Below are positions 1 through 31,101 of a stretch of DNA of 64,000 nt, piece by piece. This stretch comes from Luteipulveratus flavus (GTDB lineage: Bacteria; Actinomycetota; Actinomycetes; Actinomycetales; Dermatophilaceae). Under the pieces are notes generated by a model. The model was not told where the DNA came from. It searched no databases and saw only the letters and a program-made list of their open reading frames with translations. The stretch spans positions 62,001 through 126,000 of the forward strand of contig NZ_JAROAV010000021.1 in assembly GCF_029439465.1 (NCBI RefSeq). The letters are read 5' to 3'. The first letter of the stretch is position 1, and every line of letters starts with the position of its first letter. Position numbers and translations under genes: made by a program.

Positions 1-325
1 TGCCCGGATCGCCGACACCTACCACGCCTGGCGCGGCACCAATGGCCGGTCGAGTAGGGCCGAGGCGCTAGCCGAGGGCCGTATCGAGACCAAGGACGAG
101 GAGTACGCCGACGTGCCCGGCTTCTGCCGAAGCGTCACCCTCGCGGAGGTCAAGGAGGCCGGGTACGCCCTGACGCCAGGCCGGTTCGTCGGTGCGGCTG
201 AGGCCGAGGACGACGGCGAACCGGTCGAGCAGAAGATCGAGCGCCTCACGAAGGATCTGCTGGCGGCCATGGACGAGTCCGCCCGTCTCGACGCCGCCGT
301 CCGCACCCAGCTCGGGCGGCTCTGA
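1..325 (+). CDS. hsdM: Type I restriction-modification DNA methyltransferase subunit HsdM, C-terminal end (partial)
   Basis: Only the last 107 codons are in the window; the frame is open from base 2 to the TGA at 323-325. HsdM is the SAM-dependent N6-adenine methyltransferase subunit of the M2S complex. The tail shows the family hallmarks: a TYHAWRG stretch, VPGFC, then GYALTPGRFVG and a terminal amphipathic segment. Between AWRGT and YADVPGFC there are about 17 extra residues, encoded by a 48-bp genomic repeat at 44-91. The TGA overlaps the hsdS ATG, so the two are translationally coupled. The catalytic NPPF region lies outside the window. Identity is firm from the C-terminal motif and from hsdS/hsdR downstream. 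Confidence 0.9.
   Translation, partial: ARIADTYHAWRGTNGRSSRAEALAEGRIETKDEEYADVPGFCRSVTLAEVKEAGYALTPGRFVGAAEAEDDGEPVEQKIERLTKDLLAAMDESARLDAAVRTQLGRL
44..91. repeat. REP-like palindromic repeat inside hsdM, in frame
   Basis: The 48-bp segment matches the intergenic segment at 13418-13465 at 40 of 48 positions by eye. Its ends are imperfect inverted repeats (GGTCGAG at the left, TCGAGACC at the right). Its length is a multiple of 3 and it adds 16 codons with no stop in the hsdM frame. Intergenic palindromes with these ends are common in actinobacterial genomes; finding one within a conserved coding region is unusual. Confidence 0.7.
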
Positions 326-1581
326 TGGCGCGAGTGACGACTACCGGCGGTCGAGCGGCGGTCGGCGGTGTTTCGCTCGGCCGGATCGCCATCAGCATCG
401 GCGAGCCGAACATCAGCACACCGGACGGCTTTCGATGGACCGCGCTGAGCGCCGTCGCGCGCCTGGAAAGCGGACACACGCCGAGTCGGAAGCATGCTCA
501 CTACTGGGATGGTGATATCCCCTGGGTTGGTGTCCGCGACGCGACCGGCAACCATGGCTTGGTCATTGATGACACCGCACAGCATGTGACACAGGCCGGG
601 ATCGACAACTCTTCGGCACGAGTCCTTCCTGAGGGCACCGTGTGCCTCTCTCGAACTGCGTCGGTCGGATACGTCGTGACGCTCGGCCGACCGATGGCGA
701 CGAGCCAAGACTTCGTGAATTGGGTGTGCGGTCCTGATCTGGATCCGCGGTATCTGCACTACGTGCTGATGCTGGAGCAGGAAAGCATCCGTCGATTCGC
801 GCGAGGAACGACTCACCAGACCATGTACTACCCGGAGGCTAAGGCGCTCCACGCCCTGCTCCCATCGAGGCCACAACAGACCGCAATTGCAGACGTATTG
901 CGTGCGCTCGACGACAAGATCGCCGCGAACCGCACCGTCATCGACCGGGCCGACGACCTCGCCCGCGTCATGTATGCCTCCGCGTCCGCCGCCTCAGGCG
1001 TGCAGGTGCCGCTGTCGTCCCTGGCGCAGTTCGTCAACGGGAAGGCGTTCACCAAGGACGCCACCGGCACCGGCCGAGTGGTAATCCGGATCGCCGAACT
1101 GAACAGCGGCCTTGGCGGATCGACCGTGCGGAACGACCTTGAGGTGGCGGACCAGCATGTGGCACGCGCCGGTGATCTGCTGTTCGCGTGGTCCGGATCG
1201 CTCACGGTGCACCGCTGGTTCCGTGACGAAGCGATTGTCAATCAGCACATCTTCAAGGTGATCCCTGCTGAGGGTGTCCCGATGTGGGTCGTCAACGGTG
1301 CGGTTCGGTTGAAGCTCAGGGAGTTTCAGGCGATTGCTGCCGACAAGGCGACGACGATGGGTCACATCCAGCGTCGGCACCTGGATGAGCCAGTTGCCGT
1401 ACCGAGTGAGACCGCGCTTGCGTCACTCAGCGACAAGATGACGTCCCTGTGGGAGCGTGCGCTGTCGGCGGAGATGGAGAACGAGCGGTTGGCGGCGACG
1501 CGGGATGCGTTGTTGCCGCTGCTGATGTCAGGCAAGGTCCGCGTCAAGGACGCCGAAGCAACAGTGGGGGAGATGGTGTGA
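325..1581 (+). CDS. hsdS: Type I restriction-modification specificity subunit HsdS
   Basis: A 418-aa DNA-recognition subunit that sets the bipartite target of the HsdM/HsdR complex. It has the standard two-repeat layout. Target-recognition domain 1 is about residues 35-180, followed by a conserved helical spacer (PQQTAIADVLRALDDKI, about 182-198). Target-recognition domain 2 is about 225-390, followed by a second helical spacer ending in the LLPLLMSGKVRV-type C-terminus. The ATG overlaps the hsdM stop (TGATG), and hsdR starts 1 base after the hsdS stop. Length and repeat structure are normal. No truncated hsdS copy or inverted-repeat shuffling cassette is visible in the window. Confidence 0.93.
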   Translation: MARVTTTGGRAAVGGVSLGRIAISIGEPNISTPDGFRWTALSAVARLESGHTPSRKHAHYWDGDIPWVGVRDATGNHGLVIDDTAQHVTQAGIDNSSARVLPEGTVCLSRTASVGYVVTLGRPMATSQDFVNWVCGPDLDPRYLHYVLMLEQESIRRFARGTTHQTMYYPEAKALHALLPSRPQQTAIADVLRALDDKIAANRTVIDRADDLARVMYASASAASGVQVPLSSLAQFVNGKAFTKDATGTGRVVIRIAELNSGLGGSTVRNDLEVADQHVARAGDLLFAWSGSLTVHRWFRDEAIVNQHIFKVIPAEGVPMWVVNGAVRLKLREFQAIAADKATTMGHIQRRHLDEPVAVPSETALASLSDKMTSLWERALSAEMENERLAATRDALLPLLMSGKVRVKDAEATVGEMV

Positions 1582-1582
1582 G

Positions 1583-4500
1583 ATGGCACTGACCGCAACA
1601 GGTTTCAGCGAGGCCGACTGGGAGGAGCTCGCGCTCGACACGCTCGGCGAGCTCGGCTGGCAGCCGAAGGAAGGCGCCGCCCTCGCGCCCGGCTCCGGCG
1701 AGCGCGAGTCGTGGGACGACCTGGTCCTGCGCGGCCGGCTGCTGCAGGCGATGCGCGACCTCAACCCCGGCGTACCCGAGCAGTACCTCCAGCAGACGAT
1801 GGCCGACATCCTCGCCCCGAAGAGCCAGGACGCCATCACCGAGAACCACCGCGTCCACGACCTGCTGGTCGGCGGCTACCGGGGCACGACGTACGTCGAC
1901 CACGACGGTGTCGAGCAGCACCCGACGATCCACCTGATGAGCACCGACCCGGACCGCAACGACTGGGTCGCCGCCCACCAGGTGACGATCCGCGACCGGG
2001 ACCGCGAGCGCCGCTTCGACGTCGTCCTCTACTGCAACGGCCTGCCCGTCAGCATCATCGAGCTGAAGAAGGCCGGCTCGAAGACCGCGACCGTCGCCGC
2101 CGCGCACGCCCAGCTGCAGACGTACGTCGAGGAGTTCCCGATGGCGTTCCGGTTCGCGGTGTGCACGGTCGCCAGCGACGGCGTCCAGGCGCGCTACGGC
2201 ACGCCGTTCACTCCGCTGAACCACTTCGCGGTCTGGAACGTCGACGACAGCGGCCACCCGATGGCCATCGGTGAGGCGGACGAGGACGGCAGGCCCGTCA
2301 CCGAGCTCGAGCTCACCCTGCAGGGGCTGTTCAACCTCGAACGGTTCGTGCAGCTGCAGCACAGCTTCACCGCGTTCGACGAGGACGAGCGCGGCCTGGC
2401 CAAGCGGATCGCCAAGCCGCACCAGTACTTCGCCGTCACCAAGGCCGTCGCCAGCACCATCGAGGCGGTCGGCTCCGACGGACGCGCCGGTGTCGTCTGG
2501 CACACCCAGGGCTCCGGCAAGTCGATGGAGATGGAGCTGTACGCCAACCTCGTCAGCCGCCACCCCCGGCTGCTCAACCCGACGATCGTCGTCATCACCG
2601 ACCGCAACGAGCTGGACGGCCAGCTGTACGGCGCGTTCGACAAGAGCCTGCTGCTGTCCGAGTCGCCGAAGCAGATCACCCGCCGCGCCCAGCTGCGCGA
2701 AGAGCTGACCGACCGCGTCACCGGCGGCATCTACTTCACGACGCTGCAGAAGTTCGGCAAGACCAAGGCCGAGAAGGAGTCCGGCGCCGACCACCCGGTG
2801 CTGTGCGACCGGCGCAATGTCATCGTCATCGTGGACGAGGCGCACCGCAGCCACTACGACGACCTCGATGGCTACGCCCGCCACCTCAAGGACGCTCTGC
2901 CGCACGCGACCCTGATCGCATTCACGGGTACGCCGGTGGCACAAGGGGATCGGGACACCCGCAAGGTCTTCGGCGACGACATCGACGTCTACGACCTGAA
3001 CCGCGCGGTCGAGGACGGCGCCACCGTCCCCGTCCTCTTCGAGCCGCGGCTGATCAAGGTCGAGCGCAAGGGCGACCTGGACGACGAGTCCCTCGACGCC
3101 GCCGCCGACGAGGCCACCGCCGGCCTGGACGACGCCGAGCGCACCAAGGTCGAGCAGAGCGTCGCCGTCCTCAACGCGGTGTACGGCACGCCGGCCCGGC
3201 TGGCGACGCTCGCCGACGACTTCGTCGCGCACTGGGAGGCTCGGCGCGAGCGGATGCGTCCGTTCATCGGGGCCGACGGCAAGGCGATGATCGTGTGCGC
3301 CACCCGCCAGATCTGCGCCGACCTGTACGACGCGATCACCGCCCTGCGCAAGGACTGGCACTCCGACGACATCAGCAAGGGCGTGATCAAGGTCGTCTAC
3401 TCCGGCGACCCGTCGGACACCGGCGCCGTCAAGAAGCACGTCCGCCGTCCGTCCGAGAACGCCACGATCAAGCAGCGGCTCAAGGACGTCGACGACGAGC
3501 TGGAGATCGTCATCGTCAAGGACATGATGCTGACCGGTTACGACTCGCCGCCGCTGCACACGCTCTACCTCGACCGGCCCATCAAGGGCGCGCTGCTCAT
3601 GCAGACCCTCGCCCGGGTCAACCGCACCTTCCGCGGCAAGGAGGAGGGCCTGCTCGTCGCGTACGCCCCGGTCGCGGACAACCTGACCAAGGCGCTTGCC
3701 GAGTACACCGTCGCCGGCGGCCGCGACCAGCGCGACGCGGTCGGCCGCGGAGTGGAGGAGGCCGTCGAGCTGGCGCTCGACCTCGTCGTCAAGCTGCGTG
3801 CGCTCGTCGCGCCGGTCGACTGGAAGGGCATCTGGAGCGCGGACCCCAAGCGCGGCTTCGCTCACGCCGTGCAGGCGACGACGAACTTCCTGCGGACCGC
3901 AACACCCGGCCAGGGCGACGACGACAGCGAGACGCCGGCGGCGGCGTACCGGCGTCTGTCCACGCAGCTCGCCCGCGCCTGGGCGCTCGCACCGCGCTCG
4001 GAGGAGCTGGAGAACCTGCTGCCCGAGCTGCGCTTCTACGAGGAGGTGCGCGTCTGGATGGCCAAGTTCGACGTGGCCGACCGGCAGGCGCGCGGCGAAC
4101 CCGTGCCTGAGGACGCCGCCCGGTTGCTCGGCGAGCTCATCGTGACCTCGACCGAGGCGGGCGGGATCGTCGACATCTACGAGGCGGCCGGCCTGCCGAA
4201 GCCGAGCCTGTCCGACCTGTCCACCGACTTCGTCGAGAAGGCGCAGCAGTCCAGCGCGCCCCAGCTGGCGATCGAGGCGCTGCGCGCCAGCATCCTCGCC
4301 GAGAGCGCCCGCGTGACGCGCGGCAACGTCGTCCGGCAGCGCGCGTTCTCCCAGCGGCTGGCCGAGCTGATGGCGAAGTACACCAACCAGCAGCTGACCT
4401 CGGCCGAGATCATCGCCGAGCTGGTCGAGCTGGCCAAGGAGGTCGCAGCCGACGCCGACCGGGGCAGCCGGTTCGACCCGCCGATGAATGGCGACGAGCT

Positions 4501-4783
4501 CGCCTACTACGACGTGGTCAGCGCCAACGAGTCCGCGGTCGACGTGATGGGCGACGACGTCCTTGCCCAGATCGCCCGCGAGCTGGTCCAGGTGATGCGG
4601 CGGGACGTCCGTACGGACTGGACGGTGCGCGACGACGTACGGGCCAAACTGCGGTCGTCGATCAAGCGGCTGCTGGTCAAGCACGGCTGGCCACCGGACC
4701 AGCAGCCGGGCGCGATCAAGGACGTCATGGAGCAGATGGAGGCCATGGCTCCCCGCTACGCCGAGGAGCGCCGCCGTCGCTGA
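1583..4783 (+). CDS. hsdR: Type I restriction endonuclease subunit HsdR
   Basis: A 1066-aa motor and nuclease subunit that translocates DNA with ATP and cuts far from the recognition site. The N-terminal PD-(D/E)xK nuclease is visible as FDVVLY (about 145) and IIELKK (about 158-163). The helicase part has Walker A TQGSGKS (about 306-312), motif II VDEAH (about 416-420) and motif III TGTP (about 448). A long C-terminal helical assembly region follows. The length is normal for the family and all key motifs are intact. It starts 1 base after hsdS, so hsdM-hsdS-hsdR form one operon and the system looks functional. Confidence 0.95.
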   Translation: MALTATGFSEADWEELALDTLGELGWQPKEGAALAPGSGERESWDDLVLRGRLLQAMRDLNPGVPEQYLQQTMADILAPKSQDAITENHRVHDLLVGGYRGTTYVDHDGVEQHPTIHLMSTDPDRNDWVAAHQVTIRDRDRERRFDVVLYCNGLPVSIIELKKAGSKTATVAAAHAQLQTYVEEFPMAFRFAVCTVASDGVQARYGTPFTPLNHFAVWNVDDSGHPMAIGEADEDGRPVTELELTLQGLFNLERFVQLQHSFTAFDEDERGLAKRIAKPHQYFAVTKAVASTIEAVGSDGRAGVVWHTQGSGKSMEMELYANLVSRHPRLLNPTIVVITDRNELDGQLYGAFDKSLLLSESPKQITRRAQLREELTDRVTGGIYFTTLQKFGKTKAEKESGADHPVLCDRRNVIVIVDEAHRSHYDDLDGYARHLKDALPHATLIAFTGTPVAQGDRDTRKVFGDDIDVYDLNRAVEDGATVPVLFEPRLIKVERKGDLDDESLDAAADEATAGLDDAERTKVEQSVAVLNAVYGTPARLATLADDFVAHWEARRERMRPFIGADGKAMIVCATRQICADLYDAITALRKDWHSDDISKGVIKVVYSGDPSDTGAVKKHVRRPSENATIKQRLKDVDDELEIVIVKDMMLTGYDSPPLHTLYLDRPIKGALLMQTLARVNRTFRGKEEGLLVAYAPVADNLTKALAEYTVAGGRDQRDAVGRGVEEAVELALDLVVKLRALVAPVDWKGIWSADPKRGFAHAVQATTNFLRTATPGQGDDDSETPAAAYRRLSTQLARAWALAPRSEELENLLPELRFYEEVRVWMAKFDVADRQARGEPVPEDAARLLGELIVTSTEAGGIVDIYEAAGLPKPSLSDLSTDFVEKAQQSSAPQLAIEALRASILAESARVTRGNVVRQRAFSQRLAELMAKYTNQQLTSAEIIAELVELAKEVAADADRGSRFDPPMNGDELAYYDVVSANESAVDVMGDDVLAQIARELVQVMRRDVRTDWTVRDDVRAKLRSSIKRLLVKHGWPPDQQPGAIKDVMEQMEAMAPRYAEERRRR

Positions 4784-13380: not shown

Positions 13381-13465
13381 CCGCCGGTTGAGCCGGTCCG
13401 AGGCGCCGGCTGTGTACGCCGGTTGAGCCGGTCCGAGGCGCTAGCCGAGGACCGTGTCGAAACCC
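13381..13465. repeat. Intergenic REP-like repeat, one full and one partial copy
   Basis: A partial copy (13383 to about 13407) and a full copy (13418-13465) share CCGGTTGAGCCGGTCCGAGG and lie head to tail after hmgA. The full copy is 40/48 identical to the element inside hsdM. The region 13374-13670 holds no gene: it contains these repeats, a hairpin, a second repeat type at 13501-13543, and the leader of the nucleotidase gene. Confidence 0.7.
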
Positions 13466-30293: not shown

Positions 30294-31055
30294 GTGAACA
30301 AGGCAGAGCTCATCTCGAGCCTTGAGGGCCGGCTGGGTAGCAAGAAGGCTGCCAGCGACGCACTCGAGGCCGTTCTGGACGTGATCATCCGCGAGGTGGC
30401 GAAGGGCAACAAGGTCGGCATCACCGGCTTCGGCACCTTCGAGAAGATCGCCCGGGCCGCCCGCACCGGACGCAACCCGCGTACGGGCGAGTCGGTGCGC
30501 ATCCGGCGCACCTCCATCCCGAAGTTCCGACCGGGCACGGCGTTCAAGATCGTGGTCGCCGACCCCAAGTCGCTGCCGAGGACCGGGAACGCGGGTGGCC
30601 GTGCCGCGGCCGCTGCGCCGGTGGCGACCAAGAGCGCGGCGAAGAAGACCACCGCAAGGAAGGCGACGGGCACCAAGACGGCGGCGAAGAAGACCACCGC
30701 CAAGAAGGCCACCCCCACCCGGGCGACGGCCAAGAGGGCCCCGGCAGCGACCACGGCCGCAGCCAAGAAGACGACCGCGAAGAAGGCGCCGGCGAAGAAG
30801 ACCGCGACGACCCGGACGGCGGCGAAGAAGTCGACGGGGACGGCCGCGGCCAAGAAGACCACCGCCGCCAAGAAGACGACGGCCACGAAGGCGCCCGCCA
30901 CCAAGGCGGCGGCGAAGAAGAGCACCGCCAGGACGTCGACGGCCAAGAAGGCGCCGGCGAAGAAGACCACGGCGGCCCGCAGCACGGCGAAGAAGACCAC
31001 CGCCAAGAAGACGACGGCCAAGAAGGCGCCCGCCAAGCGCACCGCCCGCCGCTGA
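30294..31055 (+). CDS. hupB: HU-family nucleoid protein with histone H1-like tail
   Basis: A 253-aa DNA-binding protein. Residues 1-90 are a complete HU fold: MNKAELISSL, the GFGTFEKIARAARTGRNPRTGE arm, and FRPGTAFKIVV. From about residue 100 to the end is a tail made almost only of Lys, Ala, Thr and Pro in degenerate KKTTAKK and KKAPAKK repeats, as in mycobacterial HupB. The tail, about 150 aa, is longer than the HU core. GTG start, with AAGGGG upstream. It probably compacts the chromosome and may be post-translationally modified on Lys. Confidence 0.95.
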   Translation: MNKAELISSLEGRLGSKKAASDALEAVLDVIIREVAKGNKVGITGFGTFEKIARAARTGRNPRTGESVRIRRTSIPKFRPGTAFKIVVADPKSLPRTGNAGGRAAAAAPVATKSAAKKTTARKATGTKTAAKKTTAKKATPTRATAKRAPAATTAAAKKTTAKKAPAKKTATTRTAAKKSTGTAAAKKTTAAKKTTATKAPATKAAAKKSTARTSTAKKAPAKKTTAARSTAKKTTAKKTTAKKAPAKRTARR

Positions 31056-31063
31056 CCGCGGAC

Positions 31064-31101
31064 GGCCCGGCCGCCGACGACCTGCGTACGGCGGCCGGGC
31101 C
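31064..31101 (+). terminator. Terminator after hupB
   Basis: Perfect 13-bp GC stem (31064-31076 with 31089-31101) and a 12-nt loop, 8 bases after the hupB stop. Confidence 0.75.

Follow-up and report, generated by a model that had tools for sequence, protein, structure and literature searches.

Judged from its sequence, a segment near the end of hsdM (positions 45-91 of the window) is a REP/REPIN-type arm that entered the gene in frame, at a surface linker of the encoded methyltransferase subunit. Such arms also bracket a gene for a small GIY-YIG nuclease, and the arm type changes together with the nuclease. It is probable, at roughly 0.68, that the hsdM segment arose by insertion of a REP arm and that the GIY-YIG nuclease spreads the repeats, a role deduced for the enzyme from gene arrangement and co-evolution. 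The GIY-YIG partner is the new element here, while REPs inside genes are of a known kind.

A palindromic arm within hsdM

The window is a stretch of 64,000 nucleotides (G000:C14:62001-126000) from a 4.15 Mb source genome, which is assembled in 57 contigs and is 99.92% complete. It opens in the 3′ part of hsdM, followed by hsdS and hsdR. The features of this locus, and the intergenic arms with which it is compared, are listed by window position; arm types A and B are those described in the next section.

2..325, + strand: 3′ end of hsdM, type I restriction-modification methyltransferase subunit (full gene approximately G000:C14:60670-62325)
38..42, + strand: ACCAA, left copy of a 5-bp direct repeat around the hsdM insert (right copy at 89-93; 51 bp apart, or 17 codons)
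45..91, + strand: solo type-A REP arm within hsdM, GCC + GGTCGAGTAGGGCC-GAGGCGCTAGCCGAG-GGCCGTATCGAGACC, translated GRSSRAEALAEGRIET (assigned from genomic matches, the exact pattern and absence from homologues)
325..1581, + strand: hsdS, specificity subunit, intact (PF01420)
1583..4783, + strand: hsdR, restriction subunit, intact (HSDR_N, SWI2_SNF2, T1RH-like_C)
13386..13410, + strand: truncated left half of another type-B arm, adjoining the 13418 arm upstream
13418..13464, + strand: intergenic type-B arm, GGTTGAGCCGGTCCGAGGCGCTAGCCGAGGACCGTGTCGAAACC (pattern match and comparison with the hsdM arm)

An earlier note on this DNA had matched hsdM positions 44-91 to the intergenic repeat at 13418-13465 at 40 of 48 bases, and this likeness is confirmed as 85% identity over 47 ungapped bases (45-91 against 13418-13464). 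A strict pattern search of the whole genome finds an exact type-A match at C14:62048-62091; the conserved arm proper spans 48-91, or 45-91 once the flanking GCC is counted. Positions 45-92 have 31 further matches in the same genome (E 1.6e-12 to 7.5e-4). The hsdM arm has no partner arm and stands alone. The accompanying claim that the repeat entered without breaking the frame also holds, as the 552-codon frame of hsdM is open through the copy, and hsdS and hsdR are intact.

HsdM of this genome reads AWRGT-NGRSSRAEALAEGRIETKDEE-YADVPGFC. The segment is absent from about 100 HsdM homologues ranging from the same family to distant phyla, those in genomes without the repeat family included. The homologues do not, as had been supposed, pass straight from AWRG to VPGFC; most carry a short variable linker, AWRGT followed by 5-9 residues (rarely more) and Y[AD]D before VPGFC. 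The earlier figure of about 16 inserted codons therefore stands against the closest homologue (L030, AWRGTHAPAEYADIPG) and falls to a net gain of about 12-13 against a typical one. The closest homologue, 82% identical and 16 codons shorter, comes from G113, and since this genome carries the repeat family (32 type-A copies), its hsdM reads as an unoccupied site within a repeat-bearing relative. The HsdM loci of two genomes of the family share every 31-mer with the corresponding loci of Janibacter limosus and J. anophelis, and Janibacter belongs to the same family.

The mobility of the element is something we infer from sequence comparison, the hsdM site showing neither a precise empty site nor a target duplication. 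The ACCAA direct repeat around the insert is possibly a target duplication or a microhomology, and the ACC of its right copy belongs to the arm. In a model of the homologue L056, the insertion site is predicted to fall in a short linker that joins helix 440-454 to strand 473-477; the nearest solved HsdM structure is 3khk. An AlphaFold model of the 107-residue fragment encoded in the window was set aside for its low confidence at the insert. The peptide VVEPVETT is not mentioned in the literature searched. Elsewhere in the window, positions 30604-31075 hold a Lys/Ala-rich 15-base coding repeat (AAKKT type) with about 19 overlapping register positions, which resembles a histone-H1-like tail.

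The repeat family and its in-frame copies

Two arm types make up the family in the source genome. Type A reads GGTCGAGTAG-stem/tip-CGTATCGAGACC (42 exact pattern matches in the genome) and type B reads GGTTGAGCCG-stem/tip-GTCGAAACC (104 exact matches), and reversed-pattern controls return 0 matches in 4.15 Mb for both. Hairpin covariation scored over 27 arms comes to 0.407, where shuffled arms give 0.112, with 44 compensatory cells against 15.5; when the partner is slid by one column, the share of paired cells falls from 94% to at most 47%. The outer stem shows a compensatory change between the two types, C-G in one and T-A in the other. Most arms stand in inverted '+-' pairs, mostly 18 nt apart in type A and 37-39 nt apart in type B; 166 arms and 59 pairs were recorded in the stretches read around the copies, the pair table leaving aside the C19 stretch.

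These arms have the properties of REPs, being short imperfect palindromes in many interspersed copies, most of which are without coding support on both sides. The inverted pairs with a short, constant spacer have the form of REPINs, of which the hsdM copy represents a solo arm. The earlier reading of the repeat as a REP-type element is upheld by this palindromic family, its exact copies, its inverted pairs and its hairpin covariation. Type A carries GTAG before the inner stem and inside the outer stem, where type B has GCCG. In place of the CGTC tag, the arms of the source genome have CGTA, CGTG or CGAG, and some arm types of other actinobacteria do carry CGTC. Compared with MITEs, the family has inverted arms and a parent-like REP-nuclease-REP unit, and the ACCAA flanks overlap the arm and establish no constant duplication. 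Four repeat loci searched against Rfam gave no match. The distribution of the repeat across genomes of the family is patchy, and arms are tandem or clustered at several loci. Since a REP copy lies about 200 bp or less from the edge of many contigs (the starts of C1, C4, C7, C12, C16, C17, C19, C23, C25, C32, C34, C35, C37, C41, C43, C45 and C55; the ends of C39, C51 and others), the assembly was probably broken at REP copies.

A copy was taken to lie within a gene when a frame is open through it and the base composition by codon position is of coding type on both sides, after which the genes and their families were read. The resulting counts are lower bounds, as the stretches read are those around exact copies. 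Seven further genes (cobN, treY, glgB, the E2 acyltransferase gene, fhaA, a DUF2126 gene and a Band_7 gene) carry in-frame copies.

CobN: in-frame repeat copy
TreY, malto-oligosyltrehalose synthase: in-frame repeat copy
GlgB, branching enzyme: in-frame copy in the tail
2-oxoacid dehydrogenase E2: in-frame copy in the lipoyl-E3-binding linker
FhaA: in-frame copy in a linker
Transglutaminase/DUF2126 protein: in-frame repeat copy
Band_7 protein: in-frame copy in the tail

Whole pairs occur in five of the seven genes, and four of these five are exactly 123 bp, or 41 codons; among other pairs, the length is divisible by three in 18 of 54. At several of these linkers, different repeat-derived peptides are found in G040 and G077, two genomes of the same genus; several are occupied by shorter segments in G113 and G122, which are more distant. 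The likeliest reading of the in-frame copies is that they are insertions that fell in tolerant linkers and survived; they bear out the suggestion that the element creates new peptide insertions in this lineage. Both checks that the earlier note had proposed were thus carried out: the HsdM alignment finds the inserted residues missing from the homologues, including those of genomes that lack the family, so that the note's refuting condition did not arise, and the genome-wide count gives 42 + 104 exact-pattern copies, with in-gene copies in at least eight conserved genes. Tandem repeat-derived peptides are seen in G077 (L213, L208), VEPGTADTPP in GlgB and TPLVEPGERPGAT in the Band_7 protein, from which it appears that inserted arms can expand further. 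Among other candidates, a long open frame with a repeat-like peptide at C31:52336-52398 looks, on inspection only, like the strand opposite a gene, and candidates on C37 and C46 were dropped for the base pattern expected opposite a real gene. The C24 candidate was retained, as it shows that pattern only after the copy and its upstream part is GlgB.

Intragenic REPs have already been described, and REPs within genes are as such known in other phyla (PMC3733652), so that the actinobacterial set is a further case. The likeness to Rickettsia palindromic elements drawn in the earlier note is apt as an analogy of behaviour: those elements likewise lie in frame in unrelated conserved genes, as single arms or dimers, and add peptides (PMC3733652). 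They differ from the present copies in host and sequence, and some of the actinobacterial insertions are whole 123-bp pairs. Enterobacterial RU/MITE-like repeats are also small mobile sequences with reading frames inside genes, but of longer units, 103-168 bp (PMC2759123).

A GIY-YIG nuclease gene between inverted arms

A possible mobilizing enzyme is encoded between two identical type-A arms, C34:9099(+) and C34:9549(-), both of which belong to the four arms closest to that of hsdM. They bracket the following gene.

G000:C34:9240-9533: GIY-YIG nuclease gene, 98 codons (PF01541)

The protein is Slx1-like, and its nearest structures are those of the UPF0213 proteins 1zg2 and 1ywl. Across 149 genomes of the family, 13 have type-A arms, 17 have the GIY-YIG gene and nine have both (Fisher p 1.8e-7, relatedness being ignored). 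Several of the gene-only genomes have variant arms around the gene. Conversely, a GIY-YIG match at 1e-8 is not found in four type-A-bearing genomes, G024 (131 copies), G122, G097 and G031, in which the gene may have been lost after the repeats spread, or the link may be looser.

The bracketing was assessed at 46 nuclease loci from several families, most of which were found by similarity to the gene of the source genome and are thus related, for which the permutation tests correct in part. An arm lies on the '+' strand upstream and on the '-' strand downstream in 33 of the 46, with the downstream arm beginning 1-159 bp past the stop codon, compared with arms on both sides in 0 of 107 hsdM control genes. 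In a pattern-free comparison of 350-bp flanks, 45 of the 46 loci score above the best of 98 controls (each locus entering with its inverted or its direct score, whichever is larger); the inverted score alone is at least 40 in 36 of 46 against a control maximum of 31. Nuclease genes without a pattern match have other palindromes on both sides, as judged by eye. The consensus of the 46 nucleases retains the GIY-YIG core (Y, YVG, R, H, E), and some genomes carry several copies, up to five. In G040 (L232, L249, L250), a full gene is accompanied by a second copy split over two frames, apparently decaying and still bracketed by arms. In 51 of 62 loci (82%, against 0.9% shuffled), the motif TCCACAG (either strand, a DnaA-box-like core) precedes the gene, lying between the upstream REP and the start codon and mostly 47-60 bp before the start (L230-L301); it may be part of a promoter, a link to replication or a site for the nuclease.

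The two flanks of a locus match each other and the nuclease between them. Where both nearest arms were read, the upstream and downstream arm types agree in 38 of 42 loci, against 9.6 when shuffled; this is the bracketing by inverted REPs of matching type that characterizes the proposed REP-GIY-YIG class. G301 has five nuclease paralogues, and each has its own palindrome sequence on both sides, these sequences falling into four dinucleotide types; in the protein tree paralogues of the same arm type from G301 and G210 cluster together. Arm type tracks nuclease phylogeny: on a tree from a 99-column alignment that leaves 31 of 58 inner branches open, and with arm type assigned by eye in 13 cases, it changes 16 times against 30.6 when shuffled (minimum 24 in 2000). 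Within one family it changes 9 times against 18.6. Without the 13 arm types assigned by eye, there are 13 changes against 22.8.

This arrangement, its specificity and its co-evolution are evidence of the kind that first led to the proposal of RAYTs (PMC2817692), and from them we infer that the nuclease cleaves the arms and that the repeats move. A structure-specific GIY-YIG nuclease (Slx1-like/UPF0213) would recognize the folded arm and cut the arm or its target, and repair or copying would then spread the arms. The REP-gene-REP arrangement would be the autonomous unit, and REPINs, consisting of arm, spacer and arm with no gene, would be its non-autonomous derivatives, as the REPINs of RAYTs are. 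Most insertions into genes would be lost; those whose length is divisible by three, which hold no in-frame stop and which fall in a flexible linker or tail would persist as new peptides. The hsdM case would be one arm of about 48 bp, a net gain of 16 codons, that settled between the helix and the strand before GFC.

Alternatively, with the hsdM insert still a REP copy, the nuclease may be a passenger or a control enzyme: it would process hairpins in repair, its gene would be retained close to REP clusters or have inserted into them, and the REPs would spread by other means. This is unlikely, although it is the strongest of the competing explanations: the GIY-YIG superfamily includes structure-specific repair nucleases such as Slx1 (PMC1564403), UPF0213 genes in housekeeping operons are free of brackets, and four repeat-bearing genomes are without the gene. 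A passenger is not expected to match its arms, yet both flanks share one arm type, this type follows nuclease phylogeny, and paralogues within one genome are bracketed by different palindromes. It is less probable again that the REPs spread without a dedicated enzyme, through replication slippage, template switching at hairpins or gene conversion between copies. The tandem and clustered arms and the tandem repeat-derived peptides in relatives are in keeping with such processes, whereas the fixed '+-' geometry with constant spacers at unrelated sites, the patchy distribution and the matched bracketing of one gene family speak against them.

RAYTs, which are Y1 tyrosine transposases, are the known partners of REPINs (PMC2817692; PMC3116915), and one might be encoded in sequence missing from the assembly, or act in trans. 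The PF01797 (Y1_Tnp) profile, which covers RAYTs and is positive in E. coli and four other controls, finds nothing in the source genome or in any of the repeat-bearing genomes among the 149 of the family, one of them assembled as a single contig and carrying 272 copies; it is present in four incomplete family genomes that have no type-A repeats. No Y1 gene flanked by two inverted REPs accompanies the family, and a RAYT is rejected as the mobilizer, the recourse to a missing or distant one being very improbable. The linker in hsdM does vary in length among homologues, but the notion that the inserted segment simply reflects this variation, with its repeat likeness due to chance or convergence, can be dismissed, since 44 bases fit a strict type-A pattern whose reversed control is empty and E values against other copies are as low as 1.6e-12.

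Related loci and known systems

The mobilization by a GIY-YIG nuclease favored above has its closest parallel in REPIN/RAYT systems and the GTAG REPs of Pseudomonas, Stenotrophomonas and E. coli, which share with the present family the many imperfect palindromes, inverted doublets with a short fixed spacer, solo remnants, an enzyme gene between two inverted REPs and the co-evolution of enzyme and REP type (PMC2817692; PMC3116915). They differ in that the bracketed gene encodes a Y1 tyrosine transposase, where here it encodes a GIY-YIG nuclease and no Y1_Tnp occurs in the repeat-bearing genomes, and in that RAYTs are reported as single copy. Slx1-like/UPF0213 nucleases (1zg2, 1ywl; Bacillus yazA) have the same domain and small size, but no bracket was found at the loci examined for UPF0213 genes in housekeeping operons (Bacillus yazA, Radiobacillus, Sphingomonas), and the protein family therefore has other roles too. 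Methylobacterium homologues are also bracketed, with inverted scores of 103 and 44.

A Sphingobium gene from a second GIY-YIG subfamily, which we take to be COG2827-like, led to ten more proteobacterial and other loci, so that eleven bacteria were tested. Inverted CGTC-type repeats around the GIY-YIG gene score above all shuffles in eight of the eleven: Sphingobium, Novosphingobium, Rhizobium, Sinorhizobium (S. meliloti), Shinella, Aeromonas, Azospirillum (A. lipoferum) and Neisseria (CGTC-bracketed GIY-YIG loci L311, L315-L320 and L324). No clear inverted bracket surrounds the GIY-YIG genes of Photobacterium, Rhizobium tumorigenes and Planktothrix, the last having mainly a direct repeat. CGTC REPs are known from alpha-Proteobacteria, Neisseria and the Rickettsia elements RPE-4 and RPE-6; they are not associated with transposase genes and 'apparently lack a dedicated transposase' (PMC3733652). 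On the basis of these flanks, the bracketed GIY-YIG gene is a candidate for that missing enzyme. Like the actinobacterial repeats, CGTC REPs have no known transposase and occur as inverted dimers and intragenic copies (PMC3733652); they differ in arm sequence and in a GIY-YIG subfamily other than the UPF0213-like one.

With slightly less confidence than the explanation favored above, these loci together suggest a second, RAYT-independent class of REPs, in which GIY-YIG nucleases would co-evolve with and mobilize the palindromes that bracket them, embracing those of Actinobacteria, the CGTC REPs of Proteobacteria and perhaps Rickettsia palindromic elements, and repeatedly making new peptide segments. 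No paper linking GIY-YIG nucleases to REPs was found in the open literature searched, subscription papers and preprints being outside its scope. A nuclease family that is itself bracketed by matching REPs in dozens of genomes is a direct and testable candidate for the mobilizer, and its chemistry is not that of RAYTs, which use single-strand HUH chemistry. The lineage also offers a natural laboratory for the gain of segments by proteins, since these repeats have turned into in-frame linkers in enzymes such as CobN, TreY and HsdM.

Two of the loci outside Actinobacteria have unusual surroundings. On the Planktothrix agardhii plasmid (L323), the GIY-YIG gene, with a strong direct repeat in its flanks, lies between MmeI and the DISARM gene drmA. 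On plasmid AZO_p3 of Azospirillum lipoferum 4B (L320), a REP-GIY-YIG-REP unit lies between sufB and sufC, which usually form one operon, as expected for a mobile unit.
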